A stretch of DNA of 64,000 bases from positions 310,001 through 374,000 of the forward strand of contig NZ_JAMPKY010000001.1 in assembly GCF_039962255.1 (NCBI RefSeq). Reading direction: 5' to 3'. The stretch comes from Leptolyngbya subtilissima AS-A7 (GTDB taxonomy: Bacteria > Cyanobacteriota > Cyanobacteriia > Phormidesmidales > Phormidesmidaceae). Within the stretch, counting starts at the first letter, position 1. Each line of letters starts with the position of its first letter. The notes beneath the pieces are model-generated. The model was not told the origin of the DNA. It was given only the letters and a program-made list of their open reading frames with translations, and did no database searches. Positions 33,574 through 37,998 of this stretch are shown here, piece after piece. The position numbers and the translations under genes were made by a program.

Positions 33574-33670
33574 AGCAGCGCCGATCGCCCGTAGCTCCAG
33601 CCACAGCAGCGGAATGCCTGTAATGTAAGCCAGGCCAATAGTTATAACAATGTTGAGCATCACCTGAAAC
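33574..33670 (-). pseudogene. rodA-like gene fragment
   Basis: This 97-base segment aligns with 36812-36907, inside the intact rodA, with about 16 mismatches and one inserted base (roughly 83 percent identity by eye). On the minus strand it reads QVMLNIVITIGLAYITGIPL, matching the RodA segment QVVVNIGMTIGLAPITGIPL. The inserted base then shifts the frame before the WLSYG motif. No further similarity is visible on either side. It is a remnant of a second FtsW/RodA-family gene or a local duplication. Confidence 0.75.
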
Positions 33671-34005
33671 TGTGTAGCTGATGGCAGTAGTTGACGGTCT
33701 GTCAGCTACGGGTCGCTCTCTAAACCTGCGTCAAAGCGATCGCCGCCTCTCCACCCGCGCGATTTACCCCTGAAGATTTTTTTATCTACCTCCATAGTTT
33801 CATCAAGGTCGCTATCCATCTTGGTAGGGTGACAGTGAATTCAAACGGTAGCAAAGAGCAGTTAGAAACCCCTTACTTAGACCTTTGTATCGTTTCGCTC
33901 TTGAGGTGGGAAAAAGTTAGTTTTGTTTCGAATTCATAACAATTACTGACACCATCATCAATCAAAAGCATCACTCAAAAATCATCAATAAAATCAGGAG
34001 TCTTT
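33671..34005 (+). promoter_or_regulatory. Leader region of the glycine-zipper operon
   Basis: About 335 bases. It begins with an 8-bp inverted repeat, GTAGCTGA (about 33674-33681) with TCAGCTAC (about 33702-33709). The last 100 bases are AT-rich with repeated ATCA-type words and end in AGGAGTCTTT before the ATG, a good ribosome site. I cannot fix a promoter with confidence. The length suggests a regulated or long 5' leader. Confidence 0.4.
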
Positions 34006-35088
34006 ATGAATAGCGATCGACAAGTCATAATCCAAAATCAGACTGATGCTGAGTCCGTCAGCCCTGCGACAAGTTTTTCACCCACCGTCAAGGTTCACGG
34101 TGAAGTGCCCCCAACCAACGTCTATGAGGTAGAGGCTAAGCCCGCGATCGACACCGAAGTCAAAACCGAAGTGAAACCAGAGCAGAGCCCACCCCAACCA
34201 ACCCAGGAGAGTCAGTCTAACCCAACGCTGACCCGGTTATTGGTTGGTGGCCTAGTAGGCGGAACCCTAGGCACACTGGCTGCTGCTTTGGCCAATCGCA
34301 AAACCTCTAAGGGCTTTGACCACAGTGCCCAAGGGGTAAGCCGCGCCTTTAAAACCATTGGTCAGGGCCTGAGTCAGGCCGCCCAAGGAGTCGGTGATGC
34401 CGCCAGGAGCGTGGGTGAGGGTGCGACCTATGCCGTAGTGGGCTCGGCCCAAGACGCTGCCCAGAGCATCACGACAGGCACCCAACAGGTGAAATCGACC
34501 ACTGCCGACGTAGTCCATACCACGACGGAGAAGGTGAACCAAACGGTTAAAGGCGCAACAGCGGGCATCACTGAAGCGGCTCAACAAGTAAAGACCACCG
34601 CGGCTGAAGCTGTTCACTCTACGACTGAGCAGCTCAACCACACTGTGAAGGACACTGCTGAGGGCATCACTGAAGGGGCTCAACAAGCAAAGACCACTGC
34701 GGCTGAAGCCGTTCAACCTACGACCGAGCAGATTAACCAAACTGTTAAGGACATTGCTGAGGGCACTCAACGCTCGGCGTCTGACGATTCAACAGTTGAA
34801 CAACCCGTTTTAGTGGGTAATCAAGCCGTCATGGGTTCCACCTCAGAGATGGCTGATATTTTAGCGGTTGATGAACCTGCTTCAGAAATGAGTGATGTAT
34901 TAGATGTCATTGATGCAGAGACTGTCAATCTTGACGACTGGAAATCAGAGGCTGAAATTCAAAGCGGTGTAGACGATTCCACCTCAGCCAACAAATTTGT
35001 TCAAGAAGAAATTACGATTTCTCCCCAGCCCTCTGCCTCTCTAGGGTTTGAGGCTACCCGCCCCAATGAGAAGCCAAGGAGAAAATAA
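34006..35088 (+). CDS. Glycine-zipper, LEA-like repeat protein
   Basis: 360 residues, family not recognised. Residues 1-75 are polar and disordered. Residues 77-97 (RLLVGGLVGGTLGTLAAAL) are a glycine-zipper hydrophobic segment. Residues 100-260 are a long Ala/Thr/Gln/Val-rich amphipathic helix region; its last part is a tandem 33-residue repeat (about 173-257; TTEQ(L/I)NxTVKDxAEGIT...QQxKTTAAEAV). The C-terminal 100 residues are acidic and disordered. The 11-residue periodicity (3 x 11) recalls LEA group 3 and apolipoprotein-like helices that fold on membranes. Its TAA overlaps the next ATG (TAATG), so the next protein is co-translated. A membrane- or stress-protective role is inference only. 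Confidence 0.75.
   Translation: MNSDRQVIIQNQTDAESVSPATSFSPTVKVHGEVPPTNVYEVEAKPAIDTEVKTEVKPEQSPPQPTQESQSNPTLTRLLVGGLVGGTLGTLAAALANRKTSKGFDHSAQGVSRAFKTIGQGLSQAAQGVGDAARSVGEGATYAVVGSAQDAAQSITTGTQQVKSTTADVVHTTTEKVNQTVKGATAGITEAAQQVKTTAAEAVHSTTEQLNHTVKDTAEGITEGAQQAKTTAAEAVQPTTEQINQTVKDIAEGTQRSASDDSTVEQPVLVGNQAVMGSTSEMADILAVDEPASEMSDVLDVIDAETVNLDDWKSEAEIQSGVDDSTSANKFVQEEITISPQPSASLGFEATRPNEKPRRK
34522..34776 (+). repeat. 99-base tandem repeat inside the LEA-like gene
   Basis: Units begin at 34522, 34621 and 34720, each starting ACGAC(G/T/C)GAG, exactly 99 bases apart. The third unit is partial. A degenerate half-unit (ITTGTQQVKSTTADVV at protein level) precedes the first. The copies differ mainly at third positions and a few coding sites, so the array grew by duplication under protein-level selection. 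Confidence 0.85.
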
Positions 35089-35648
35089 TGTCTACACCTA
35101 ACGACGAAACCGTCACCACTAGGAATAGGAATCAGATTTCCCCAACGGTCGAGGATGAGTCTTATTCCTCTGAGCGAAACGTCGGTCCTAACAGTCAGGC
35201 GTTTACTAAGGTGGCCATTGGGGCTTTGATAGGGGCCACCCTAGGAGGTATTGCCGGCGCCTTGACCAACAGAGGCATTGTCGATCGCATCAACACCTCT
35301 GTGCGGGGAGTTGGCAATACCGTCAGAAAAACGACTGCTGGAATTGACGAAACTGTTAAAGGCGTGGGCGATGCGGTCCAAAGCGTTGCGGTTGGGGTCA
35401 ATACGACCGCCAAGGAGATCAACGAAGCGGTGCGAGAAACGGCTGAGGGTATTAGCGGAACTGTAAAAAGTACCGTTCATACTGTGCAAAACACCGCTGA
35501 TGAGGTTCAGGAGACGGTTGGCAGTACGGTGAACACCGTTAAGAGCGTAGTGGAGGAAACCACTGCGTCTGCCAACCCAGCACTGGATACAGAGCAAGCA
35601 ACGCTCTATAAGCTAGTTCCTGTTACTGGCAACAAACCCAATGCCTAA
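35088..35648 (+). CDS. Second glycine-zipper amphipathic-helix protein
   Basis: 186 residues, a shorter relative of the preceding protein. It has a disordered N-terminus (1-38), a glycine zipper (41-62; KVAIGALIGATLGGIAGAL), then 100 residues of V/T/A-rich heptad- or 11-mer-like helix (RINTSVRGVGNTVRKTTAG...). The 33-residue repeat is not obvious here, but the TVK and AEGI words recur. It is translated from TAATG, overlapping the previous stop by one base, with AAGGAGAAA as ribosome site. Shared architecture and overlap suggest two subunits of one complex. The YtxH-like and gas-vesicle accessory proteins have a comparable layout, but no gvp gene is present. Confidence 0.72.
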   Translation: MSTPNDETVTTRNRNQISPTVEDESYSSERNVGPNSQAFTKVAIGALIGATLGGIAGALTNRGIVDRINTSVRGVGNTVRKTTAGIDETVKGVGDAVQSVAVGVNTTAKEINEAVRETAEGISGTVKSTVHTVQNTADEVQETVGSTVNTVKSVVEETTASANPALDTEQATLYKLVPVTGNKPNA

Positions 35649-35704
35649 CTTCGAGCAACAAAGGGCACCCCAATGAACCCTATCGGCACGGCAGGACGTC
35701 GATT

Positions 35705-36583
35705 ATGAGCTGGCTATCTCGACTGTTGATCAGAAAAAAAGTGCCAATCTGTCAGCCGACGGCAGCCTCGCCGGTTTCCCCAAGCCCACCACCGGAGTCG
35801 ATGGCTCAGGTGGTGGTTGAGGAAACCATTATGGCGGTGGCGAAATGGTTGATCAGCCTGGCAAATCGCACCTTCGAAACGCAAGCAACCTCGCCAAAAC
35901 CAGAGCCTCCCCCGCCGGCCGACCCAGCTGAGGAGCAGGTGGCCAGTGCCGAGGCTCCACCACTGGAAGAGACCAACCAAGCGAGTGTGGTAGACCAGCT
36001 GCTGGCAAAGTTTAGCGTTTTGATTGAGGAAGCTTGCGATCGCACCCAGTCAATTGCCCTGCTTGAAAGCCGCCTTCAGGAGCTTGAATCTGCTCGGCAA
36101 GGCACTCCAGATTGGCAAGACTCTATTCAACTTCTCAATCAGGCGGTGGTCAAACTTGATGGCCGCCTCAGCCAAGTAGAAAAGATATTGCAACAGGTTG
36201 ACCTGGGCACGATCTCGGAGACCTTAGCGATCTCTTTGGAAAACGAATCCCACCTTCAGCAGTGGGCACAAACCTCGACCCAGCAAATTGCTGAGTTTAG
36301 CGTTCGCTTAAACACTGTCGAAACCGCTGCTGAAACAACCGAGGAGCAGCACCGCGCCAATCTGCATAAAATCTTTCAGGTAATTCAACCTACCATCCAA
36401 CAAACAACGGCTCTTGAAGGGCGTGTTTCCTATTTGGAGAAAGTAGTCACTCAATTGAGACTGGTGCCTAAGTTCGTAGAGAGCAACCACCGCTCCATTA
36501 CTACCCTGCAAAATCACCTTAAGCAGGTTGAGAGCAACTCAGTTTCAATCGGAAACGGGAACGGTGGCCAAAAAGGACTGTAG
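35705..36583 (+). CDS. Coiled-coil protein of the glycine-zipper operon
   Basis: 292 residues, family not recognised. The N-terminus starts with a short amphipathic basic segment (MSWLSRLLIRKK), then a Pro-rich linker, a helix around residues 33-55 (VVVEETIMAVAKWLISLANR), an acidic Pro/Ala linker, and a long coiled coil from about residue 95 to 280 (several heptad blocks, for example QLLNQAVVKLDGRLSQVEKI). The C-terminal tail is Gly/Asn-rich (SIGNGNGGQKGL). It lies 56 bases after the second glycine-zipper gene on the same strand, so it is probably in the same transcript. It could act as a scaffold or tether for the two helical proteins (inference). Confidence 0.7.
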   Translation: MSWLSRLLIRKKVPICQPTAASPVSPSPPPESMAQVVVEETIMAVAKWLISLANRTFETQATSPKPEPPPPADPAEEQVASAEAPPLEETNQASVVDQLLAKFSVLIEEACDRTQSIALLESRLQELESARQGTPDWQDSIQLLNQAVVKLDGRLSQVEKILQQVDLGTISETLAISLENESHLQQWAQTSTQQIAEFSVRLNTVETAAETTEEQHRANLHKIFQVIQPTIQQTTALEGRVSYLEKVVTQLRLVPKFVESNHRSITTLQNHLKQVESNSVSIGNGNGGQKGL

Positions 36584-36738: not shown

Positions 36739-37998
36739 CTAATCTGTAAACTTCAGGCGATGGCGAAAGTTTGCCACTGACTCAACCATGCCTAGGGCAA
36801 TAAAGTTTGTCAGCAGCGCCGATCGCCCGTAGCTCAGCCAGGGCAGCGGAATGCCGGTAATCGGTGCCAGACCAATGGTCATGCCAATATTGACCACCAC
36901 CTGGAACACAATCATTGATAACACCCCAATCGCCAGGAGTGAACCAAAGTCATCCTTGGCATTTTGGGCAATAATCACTAAGCGATAGCAAACTAGCCAG
37001 TAGGTGAGAATTACCACCATCGACCCCACAAAACCCCACTCTTCGCCCACCGCCGAAAAGATAAAGTCGGTGTGCTGCTCAGGAATAAAGTTGAGCTGAG
37101 TTTGGGTGCCGTTGCCCAAACCCTGGCCCCAGAGCTTACCCGCCCCAATGGCAATGCGCGACTGAATCAGGTGGTAGCCACCCCCCAGCGGATCTTTGTG
37201 CGGGTCGAGAAATAACACCAGACGATCTTTCTGGTAGTCCTGCAACAGGCCCCACAGCACGTCGCCCAGTTTGCCTGCAATCAGGTTCACCGCCGTGGCG
37301 ACCACGGTGCTAAACCAGCGCCAGGGCAGCGTAAACCAAGCAGTCAGCCCCATAGCCAAACTCCACACCAGCCAGCCAGGTAGCACCAGGTGAAACATAA
37401 TCGCCGCCACTAAGGGCGACACAAATAGCACCAACCAGCCGGGGTTGCAGTTGGCCCAGTAGAGCATGCCTAGGGTAATCGCCCCAAACACCAGCGAAGT
37501 CCCTAGGTCAGGTTGAACGAAGACAAGTACCCACGGCAGCACAATGACGGCGATCGCACTGCCAACTCCCCAAAGCGTGGAGGCGTCGCGGCGGCTGAGC
37601 ATTGCCGCCAGGGTAATAATGATGCTCAGCTTGGCAAACTCTGAAGGCTGCACGTAGAAGCCGCCCAGGGCAATCCAGCTCTGGGCACCGCCGCCCACGG
37701 TGCCGATAAACATCACCGCCACCAGCAGCAGATTGACGATGCCGTAGATAATCCACTGCCAGTTGAGCAGGTGCTCGTAGCGACTGCGGGACACCCACAG
37801 GGCAATGCTCAAGCCGATCAGGCCCAGCACGCCATGGTTTAAGCCATAGTTGCCGTCAACTGTGTTGCGCTGAATGCTATGAATGACAACCGCCCCAAAA
37901 GCCGTGAGCGCCACGGGCAGCGCCACCAGCACCCAATCGATGCCCTGCCAGCCTACCGCCAGCGATCGCCACTGCTTTTGCGCATCGGTTAAAAACAT
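36739..37998 (-). CDS. rodA: Rod-shape peptidoglycan glycosyltransferase RodA
   Basis: 419-residue SEDS-family protein with about ten membrane segments. RodA polymerises lipid II into glycan strands for elongation with a class B PBP. Family motifs are visible: the loop GGAQSWIALGGFYVQPSEFAKL, LVFVQPDLGTSLVFGAI, FIPEQHTDFIFSAVGEEWG, and near the C-terminus GMTIGLAPITGIPLPWLSYG. Length and motifs favour RodA over FtsW. Bases 36812-36907 of this gene have a diverged copy at 33574-33670. Confidence 0.95.
   Translation of the reverse strand: MFLTDAQKQWRSLAVGWQGIDWVLVALPVALTAFGAVVIHSIQRNTVDGNYGLNHGVLGLIGLSIALWVSRSRYEHLLNWQWIIYGIVNLLLVAVMFIGTVGGGAQSWIALGGFYVQPSEFAKLSIIITLAAMLSRRDASTLWGVGSAIAVIVLPWVLVFVQPDLGTSLVFGAITLGMLYWANCNPGWLVLFVSPLVAAIMFHLVLPGWLVWSLAMGLTAWFTLPWRWFSTVVATAVNLIAGKLGDVLWGLLQDYQKDRLVLFLDPHKDPLGGGYHLIQSRIAIGAGKLWGQGLGNGTQTQLNFIPEQHTDFIFSAVGEEWGFVGSMVVILTYWLVCYRLVIIAQNAKDDFGSLLAIGVLSMIVFQVVVNIGMTIGLAPITGIPLPWLSYGRSALLTNFIALGMVESVANFRHRLKFTD

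Follow-up and report, generated by a model that had tools for sequence, protein, structure and literature searches.

A conserved cyanobacterial gene unit encoding paired glycine-zipper, amphipathic-helix proteins, tentatively read as a lipid-surface coat

In a 64,000-nucleotide stretch of the genome of Leptolyngbya subtilissima AS-A7 (contig NZ_JAMPKY010000001.1, positions 310,001 to 374,000; hereafter the window), three adjacent genes, here called p1, p2 and p3, form a unit that is conserved among cyanobacteria. p1 and p2 each encode a glycine zipper followed by a long, weakly hydrophobic amphipathic helix, and p3 encodes a protein with a basic amphipathic N-terminus and a coiled-coil-like region. 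We tentatively favor the reading that this operon makes a membrane-anchored helix coat on lipid surfaces, with p3 as an optional scaffold, and that the coat would serve to stabilize or shape membranes or lipid bodies under stress. We regard this as a serious possibility, short of probable.

Gene unit, conservation and protein anatomy

A sequence-only reading of the window had described three adjacent + strand genes, the first two overlapping by one base and the third following after 56 bases, and the coordinates of the open reading frames bear this out (the p1/p2 overlap reads TAATG). The features of the locus are as follows.

34006-35088, + strand: p1, 360 aa; low-complexity N-terminus, zipper at about residues 78-96, then an amphipathic helix of about 155 residues with an 11/3 period, acidic C-terminus
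34563-34765, + strand: tandem repeat inside p1, 99 bp (33 residues), 2.1 copies
35088-35648, + strand: p2, 186 aa, paralogue of p1 by sequence; zipper at residues 42-60, predicted single helix at 62-162 (period 3.6), tail LYKLVPV at 173-179
35604-35624, + strand: coding stretch for LYKLVPV, the conserved tail motif of p2
35705-36583, + strand: p3, 292 aa; short, basic, amphipathic start (MSWLSRLLIRKK), conserved segment VVVEETIMAVAKWL, coiled-coil-like region, LVPKFVESN near the C-terminus
33671-34005, + strand: upstream region of p1, 335 bp, strongly conserved among five trio-bearing genomes
33574-33670, - strand: rodA 3'-end remnant, 97 bp, directly upstream of the trio and outside the operon

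By codon-position differences and by the ratio of nonsynonymous to synonymous substitution rates (dN/dS), p1, p2 and p3 are real genes. Third codon positions varied most in each orthologue comparison (14, 8 and 36 at positions 1, 2 and 3 for p2 of the window's genome, G000, versus genome G019), and dN/dS against four relatives was 0.17-0.48 for p1, 0.13-0.22 for p2 and 0.23-0.26 for p3; rodA (named by eye), given for comparison, had 0.04-0.09 against three relatives. Near relatives of the locus occur in Nodosilinea sp. FACHB-131, Leptolyngbya sp. FACHB-60 and the metagenome-assembled genome Nodosilinea sp. WJT8-NPBG4 (WJT8). Mean column identity upstream of p1 was 92% over 364 columns (five trio-bearing genomes, first p1 bases included). 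The 335 bp likely hold the promoter and 5' leader, judging from this sequence conservation; a consensus promoter was looked for upstream of p1 and none was found.

The trio is a conserved unit. We searched a class-wide sample of 388 cyanobacterial genomes with p2 and p3 profiles, and the broader p2 profile matched 20 of them at E 1e-50 or better (42 when any match at 1e-4 was counted). p1 stood directly before p2 in all 20, and likewise in the separately fetched WJT8 locus. The narrow p3 profile matched 14 of the 388 genomes, one of which, G092, was dropped because its match (1.7e-4) was absent with the broader profile; in the remaining 13 genomes p3 lay directly downstream of the pair on the same strand. 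A weak p3 match in G052 (5.6e-5) covered only a middle stretch, lay on a different contig from the p1-like gene of that genome and was not counted. With WJT8 included, the totals come to 21 pairs, spread over 13 genera and 5 families, and 14 trios, spread over 10 genera and 4 families. The conserved linkage in related genomes by which the earlier proposal was to be judged was thus found, with p1 before p2 in 21/21 and p3 after them in 14/21. Because all seven pair-only genomes lacked p3 at E 0.001 with the broader profile, the pair is the core and p3 an optional partner. The three-gene plan of the sequence-only reading holds as a conserved unit and was less specific than what was found, in that p1 and p2 differ in helix period and p3 is optional.

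The p1-p2 gap ranged from -14 to +570 nt (18 of the 21 genomes measured) and the p2-p3 gap from 52 to 557 nt (13 of the 14 measured), so that in some species p3 may be transcribed from a separate promoter. Among the 42 genomes matched by the p2 profile, 22 matched weakly; five of these were fetched (G052, G069, G198, G236 and G294), and each held one p1-like gene and no pair. As the other 17 were not inspected, the number of pair-bearing genomes is at least 20. The trio was present in only 4 of 26 genomes of the window's own genus. Gene trees were resolved in part only, and in the p1, p2 and p3 trees alike G152, from the same family, fell beside the Nodosilinea group. No tblastn match for p2 or p3 of the window was found among 72,556 plasmid records, and a search of IMG/VR, made with p3 only, returned no viral relative.

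Single glycine-zipper/amphipathic-helix proteins resembling p1, with no p2, were also seen in other cyanobacterial families (L136:7862-9121, L138:8164-9174, L137:7646-8773, L139:2467-3576 and L045:9750-10958); by sequence these unpartnered proteins would belong to a wider family.

Sequence comparison marks p1 and p2 as paralogues that have diverged (31% identity over 113 residues, E 6.6e-9). The plan that had been described for both, a zipper and then a long amphipathic helix, was upheld throughout. The GxxxGxxxG zipper is invariant in all 19 aligned members (G81/G85/G89 in p1, G45/G49/G53 in p2), and the two proteins share, besides the zipper, a core of the GVGDAxxSV type. Across four genomes of the genus, p2 hardly varies at residues 34-163. 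Net charge over the 15 residues following the hydrophobic stretch is positive in 21/21 p1 and 21/21 p2. Scored on one 95-residue stretch per protein, helical periodicity exceeded the maximum of 100 shuffles in all 21 p1 and all 21 p2, with a period of 3.66-3.68 (11/3) in every p1 and 3.58-3.63 (18/5) in every p2; the two paralogues thus keep different pitches. The hydrophobic face of both helices consists of V, A, T and I with few bulky residues, and aromatic residues are scarce in the window's proteins (3/165 in the p1 helix, 0/101 in that of p2, which is devoid of L, M, F, W and Y). AlphaFold2, run on the p2 monomer with a four-row alignment, predicted one straight helix at 62-162, with a block-mean predicted local distance difference test (pLDDT) of 80-94 at 71-160 and 67 at 61-70; the zipper helix at 34-59 was of low confidence (pLDDT 49-56) and residues 1-30 looked disordered (41-42).

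Helix-phased tandem units were detected in eight p1 proteins, with 33 residues in G000, G010, G019 and WJT8, 22 in G284 and G197, and 40 in G343 and G377, all of them near whole numbers of turns. The p1 orthologue of G017 is exactly 33 residues shorter than that of the window (327 versus 360 aa). In addition, six of the invariant glycines after the p1 zipper (G103, G110, G121, G128, G139 and G146) are spaced by 7 and 11 residues in turn; the resulting 18-residue pattern may mark a second helix-packing face.

All 21 p2 proteins end in the motif [LT]Y[KRI]L[VI]P[VIL]; across the 19 aligned rows its Y, L and P never vary. Since the tail is kept in the seven genomes without p3, its partner cannot be p3 alone. 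As a genome-wide tag, a degenerate LYKLVP pattern occurred at six places in three genomes, versus five for the reversed control, and three of the six were p2 itself. As for the others, the one at L175 lies in no frame of at least 60 codons, that at L177 falls midway along a short overlapping frame, and that at L176, in the window's genome, stands towards the end of a frame of 60 codons that overlaps another gene's end. The last was taken as chance.

Within p3, the helix-like segment VVVEETIMAVAKWL contains five residues (E39, M43, A46, W48 and L49) that are invariant in 12/12 sequences, and near the end a VPKxVExN-like stretch is conserved, its sole invariant residue being N. p3 had been described as a long coiled coil with a basic amphipathic N-terminus. 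The start agrees with this, as does a coiled-coil-like period of 3.35-3.51, which in 10 of 14 members was stronger than in any of 60 shuffles. An AlphaFold2 model of p3 was discarded (mean pLDDT 48.7).

Likeness to lipid-binding helices and rival readings

Searches of Pfam, NCBIfam, PADLOC and PHROGs gave no match over cut-off or otherwise convincing, and among the Pfam and NCBIfam matches listed for p1-p3 of the window no family passed its curated cut-off; that the sequence-only reading recognized no named family is borne out for these matches. Below the cut-offs, several lipid-binding families recurred. Apolipophorin III (PF07464) was matched at E 0.01 or better by 19/19 p2 (best 34.6 bits, at L122; 23.9 for the window's p2; cut-off 36.3), Apolipoprotein (PF01442) weakly by 5/19 p1, Synuclein (PF01387) at E 0.001 by one of the 19 p1, not that of the window, and Perilipin (PF03036) by the window's p2 with 19.2 bits versus a cut-off of 33. 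When the p1 profile was compared with the PDB, 17 sequences scored E 1 or better, including nine alpha-synuclein sequences (E 0.046-0.35) and two of apolipophorin III. A single p1 helix had apolipoprotein A-IV as its first match (E 0.14), and one shuffle of that helix had no match. These E-values are no proof of homology and suggest the same physical design; alpha-synuclein as a homologue was rejected as unproven (E at least 0.046, with two designed helical proteins ranking higher).

Physical comparison points the same way. Mean hydrophobic moments, computed with one hydrophobicity scale and sliding windows so that comparison with published values is approximate, were 0.30-0.34 for p1 (two window sizes) and 0.41-0.42 for p2. 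Table 1 of PMC5889406 gives moments of 0.30 for alpha-synuclein, 0.35 for Plin3 and 0.257 for Plin4, with an aromatic fraction of 0.02 or less; the p1 moment is near that of alpha-synuclein, and its aromatic content is equally low. The same paper describes Plin4 as built of 33-mer repeats and puts the length needed for lipid-droplet targeting at more than 66 residues, which the helices of p1 (about 155 residues) and p2 (about 100) exceed. p1 thus shares with alpha-synuclein, Plin3 and Plin4 the 11/3 period, low hydrophobicity, a V/A/T face and scarce aromatics, and in the window also the 33-residue unit. Unlike in those proteins, however, a zipper precedes the helix here, and p2 has an 18/5 period and a higher moment although it contains few aromatics; the similarity looks convergent. 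p2 may likewise differ from the five-helix bundle of apolipophorin III and the exchangeable apolipoproteins, its monomer model (four-row alignment) being one straight helix, and it carries an N-terminal zipper. In bacteria, MLDS, one of the major proteins of lipid droplets, contains an apolipoprotein motif (PMC5504291). It, TadA and HBHA of actinobacteria are found on lipid bodies and, like the present proteins, have helices of the apolipoprotein kind (PMC5504291, PMC6176652); no such zipper or operon figures in their descriptions there. Compared by description only, glzT of Synechococcus is a salinity-regulated glycine-zipper gene encoding a two-transmembrane protein (PMC7771541).

From these features we infer how the coat might work. 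The zippers of p1 and p2 would each enter a bilayer, or else the monolayer around a lipid body, and the invariant GxxxGxxxG faces would let them pack as homo- or hetero-oligomers. The long V/A/T-rich helices would then lie along the lipid surface for roughly 100-155 residues, probably on the cytoplasmic side, held by many weak contacts, as happens with the 11-mer-repeat helices found in alpha-synuclein and perilipin 4. The p2 tail LYKLVPV may dock to a partner present in all carriers, other than p3 alone, and p3, where present, would act as a scaffold at the periphery, clustering the coat or setting its spacing. Under stress, the coat would probably serve to stabilize or shape the thylakoid, the plasma membrane or lipid bodies (cyanoglobules). 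This stress role is guessed by analogy with MLDS and HBHA on lipid bodies and with the naming of ytxG, ytxH and ytxJ in a gene list of a SigB-regulon paper. The "membrane-associated assembly" proposed by the sequence-only reading would fit the zipper and helices.

Several points weigh against the coat. The hydropathy of the zippers (KD19) is only moderate, 1.50-2.03 in p1 and 1.75-2.41 in p2, so that stable membrane insertion is not assured. The N-side of the p1 hydrophobic stretch is also net positive in 12/21, exceeding the C-side in two of these, which leaves the sidedness of p1 uncertain. Helix-phased tandem repeats are detectable in no more than the 8 of 21 p1 noted above, and the matches to lipid-binding families all lie under the curated cut-offs. 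Of three PDB searches, two had designed helical repeat proteins in first place and one had them in third (two designed helical proteins lead the p1 profile list, and a designed helical repeat is the best match of the p2 profile), so that the resemblance partly reflects general helix composition. Among the Anabaena cyanoglobule proteins named in PMC12923008, where 13 core proteins are reported among 97 quantified, there is none of the p1/p2 type (the strain itself was not searched for the pair). The mechanism given to p3 is drawn from its sequence motifs, and localization, expression and lipid binding of the coat are predictions.

A more specific form of the coat is, in our view, rather doubtful. 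The pair would constitute a two-subunit bacterial coat independent of perilipins and synucleins, anchored by its zippers and combining the 11/3 and 18/5 pitches, which would complement each other, in a carpet of mixed helices covering thylakoids or lipid bodies. p1 would be a length-variable ruler grown by helix-phased repeats and p2 the subunit of constant length that docks through its tail, while p3 would cross-link them as a coiled coil in the species that have it.

Late embryogenesis abundant (LEA)-like protection is a possible main rival and is inseparable from the coat by sequence; we nevertheless hold it to be unlikely. Here the helices would be unfolded when wet and fold on drying or in salt, shielding membranes and proteins, with the zipper merely tethering them. 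The low-hydrophobicity, T/A/V/Q-rich 11-mer-type repeats and the low-complexity N-termini of p1 and p2 suit such a protein, and 11-residue periodicity is also a trait of LEA group 3. However, no LEA model appeared among the Pfam matches listed for the window's proteins (for p2, the best 25 of 26), for any of 19 p1 members or for ten p2 scanned singly, nor among the best 25 of 47 families when all p2 members were taken together. The invariant zipper and the conserved tail also point to a specific assembly. Of the earlier label "LEA-like", only the composition has stood.

Less probable again is a scaffold role, structural or curvature-setting, at septa or thylakoids, in which p1 and p2 would anchor in the membrane and draw the p3 coiled coil into a cytoskeleton-like filament. 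p3 occurs only with the pair (13/13 genomes), coiled-coil periodicity was found in 10/14 members and the unit lies beside rodA in the window, all of which this reading would accommodate. Yet a third of the carriers (7/21) have no p3 anywhere at E 0.001, which argues that p3 is not core, and among the loci compared rodA is a neighbour in the window's genus only.

We consider it improbable that p1 and p2 are distant YtxH/DUF948 members acting as YtxGH-like general stress proteins of the envelope. The YtxH family plan is a glycine-zipper-like hydrophobic segment followed by an amphipathic helix, and p1 and p2 share it. YtxH (PF12732) was matched by 12/19 p2 and DUF948/YtxG (PF06103) by 15/19 at E 0.01 or better (best for YtxH 8.9e-7), and ytxG, ytxH and ytxJ appear in a gene list of a SigB-regulon paper (PMC7824861). 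None of ten p2 scanned singly, however, reached the cut-offs (best 29.3 bits versus 37.5 for YtxH, 25.5 versus 37.2 for DUF948), and p2 differs from YtxH and YtxG in its conserved C-terminal Y-x-L-V/I-P tail. Other coiled or helical families were about as widespread among p2, for example Baculo_PEP_C (14/19) and ZorA (15/19).

Very little speaks for an accessory anti-phage or conflict module, that is, a patchy unit in a variable spot among defence-like genes. The trio's presence in few genomes of its genus (4/26) would agree with it, as would the company it keeps at that spot, an AAA plus FtsK/PD-(D/E)XK pair (WJT8, and G004 by eye) and a NACHT-pentapeptide protein (G020). In PADLOC, though, the trio matches only weakly, to coiled coils and the tails of ZorA, likely an effect of composition, and the neighbours in other genera are not shared. 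Zorya ZorA itself, which would call for a MotA-like channel domain, was rejected (p2 18.3 bits versus a cut-off of 190, with the match confined to the later, helical part of the profile).

The poorest candidate, a gas-vesicle or polyhydroxyalkanoate (PHA)-granule accessory of the GvpT/GvpP or phasin type, has weak matches to GvpT (3/19 p2, best 1.8e-5) and phasin_2 (4/19) in its favor and is far-fetched, because gas-vesicle genes (PF00741) are absent from 3/20 carriers, present in 10/11 non-carriers and in G000 unlinked to the trio (contig C3 versus C1 for the window), because a class III PHA synthase, the only class searched, passed its cut-off in 3/20 carriers and not in G000, and because scores stay far below cut-offs (NF041669 for GvpT/GvpP, 11.5 bits for p1 and 12.0 for p2 versus 80; phasin, 16.7 versus 99.7 bits). 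Co-occurrence and the class III PhaC counts effectively exclude gas vesicles and PHA granules as a constant partner, and the homology to gas-vesicle accessory proteins that the sequence-only reading had named as its possible undoing did not materialize.

The variable spot at the rodA end

In the window, rodA is the next gene after the trio, on the opposite strand and facing it. Clustering the flanking genes of 20 loci yielded no neighbour shared consistently between genera; cross-genus clusters were few and joined two to four loci at varied distances. In genus g80 an mfd-like gene (named by eye) is found close to the pairs; the trios of the Nodosilinea group lie beside rodA.

The 97-bp remnant upstream of the trio is 82% identical to positions 36812-36907, in the same orientation. 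Copies of the rodA end, 25-172 bp long, also follow directly after the acylphosphatase gene in G010, G017 and G004, with a short one in G019, and copies stand between a cargo block and the trio in WJT8 and, as a 98-bp stretch, in G019. Within the Nodosilinea group, copies of the rodA 3' end near cargo between acylphosphatase and rodA were located at L066:11273-11357, L076:4412-4581 and L042:11489-11586. This arrangement suggests that cargo blocks may have been inserted one after another at the rodA end, with a copy of that end left behind by each. The trio provides the only sizeable genes between the rodA-end copy and rodA in the window; G004 has other genes between acylphosphatase and rodA, including the AAA and FtsK/nuclease pair, and G017 and G019 carry other cargo upstream of the trio.

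Some of this cargo resembles known gene types. In WJT8 the spot holds a two-gene module of an AAA ATPase and a PD-(D/E)XK-FtsK fusion (L076:300-4357), for which PADLOC gives an SspH/Mad8-like match, and what looks by eye like the same pair is present in G004 (L066:3954-7993); by sequence the module is a candidate defence system. Beside rodA in G020, where the contig ends, lies a gene for a NACHT protein with an NNH3 N-terminus and pentapeptide repeats (L067:5150-8005), possibly a conflict or defence gene. A nearly identical 96-codon open frame (MLCLPYLVSSARRGEATNP...) flanks the variable spot in two genomes (L041:7092-7382 and L067:4219-4509) and is possibly a mobile or non-coding repeat. The G019 cargo (L042:2993-11327) comprises a 1303-aa cyclase/AAA/TPR protein and two large neighbours of 753 and 695 aa, which by eye look like carotenoid oxygenases.

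Meaning for cyanobacterial biology

A keyword-limited search of the open literature found no paper on the p1-p2-p3 unit. Its parts are of known kinds, a glycine zipper, an amphipathic helix of the lipid-binding type and a coiled coil; none of the sources searched describes their combination, the pairing of two pitches or the conserved operon.

Even if the mechanism proves to be another, a unit spread across 13 genera with no curated family marks a gap in cyanobacterial annotation. If the coat reading is true, cyanobacteria would possess a portable, self-contained operon that covers lipid surfaces with helices of the synuclein/perilipin type, a design best known from eukaryotes, and the unit would offer a simple genetic system for how such helices choose between membranes and lipid bodies. 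It would also give a handle on why two pitches are kept side by side and on what shapes or protects thylakoids and cyanoglobules under stress.

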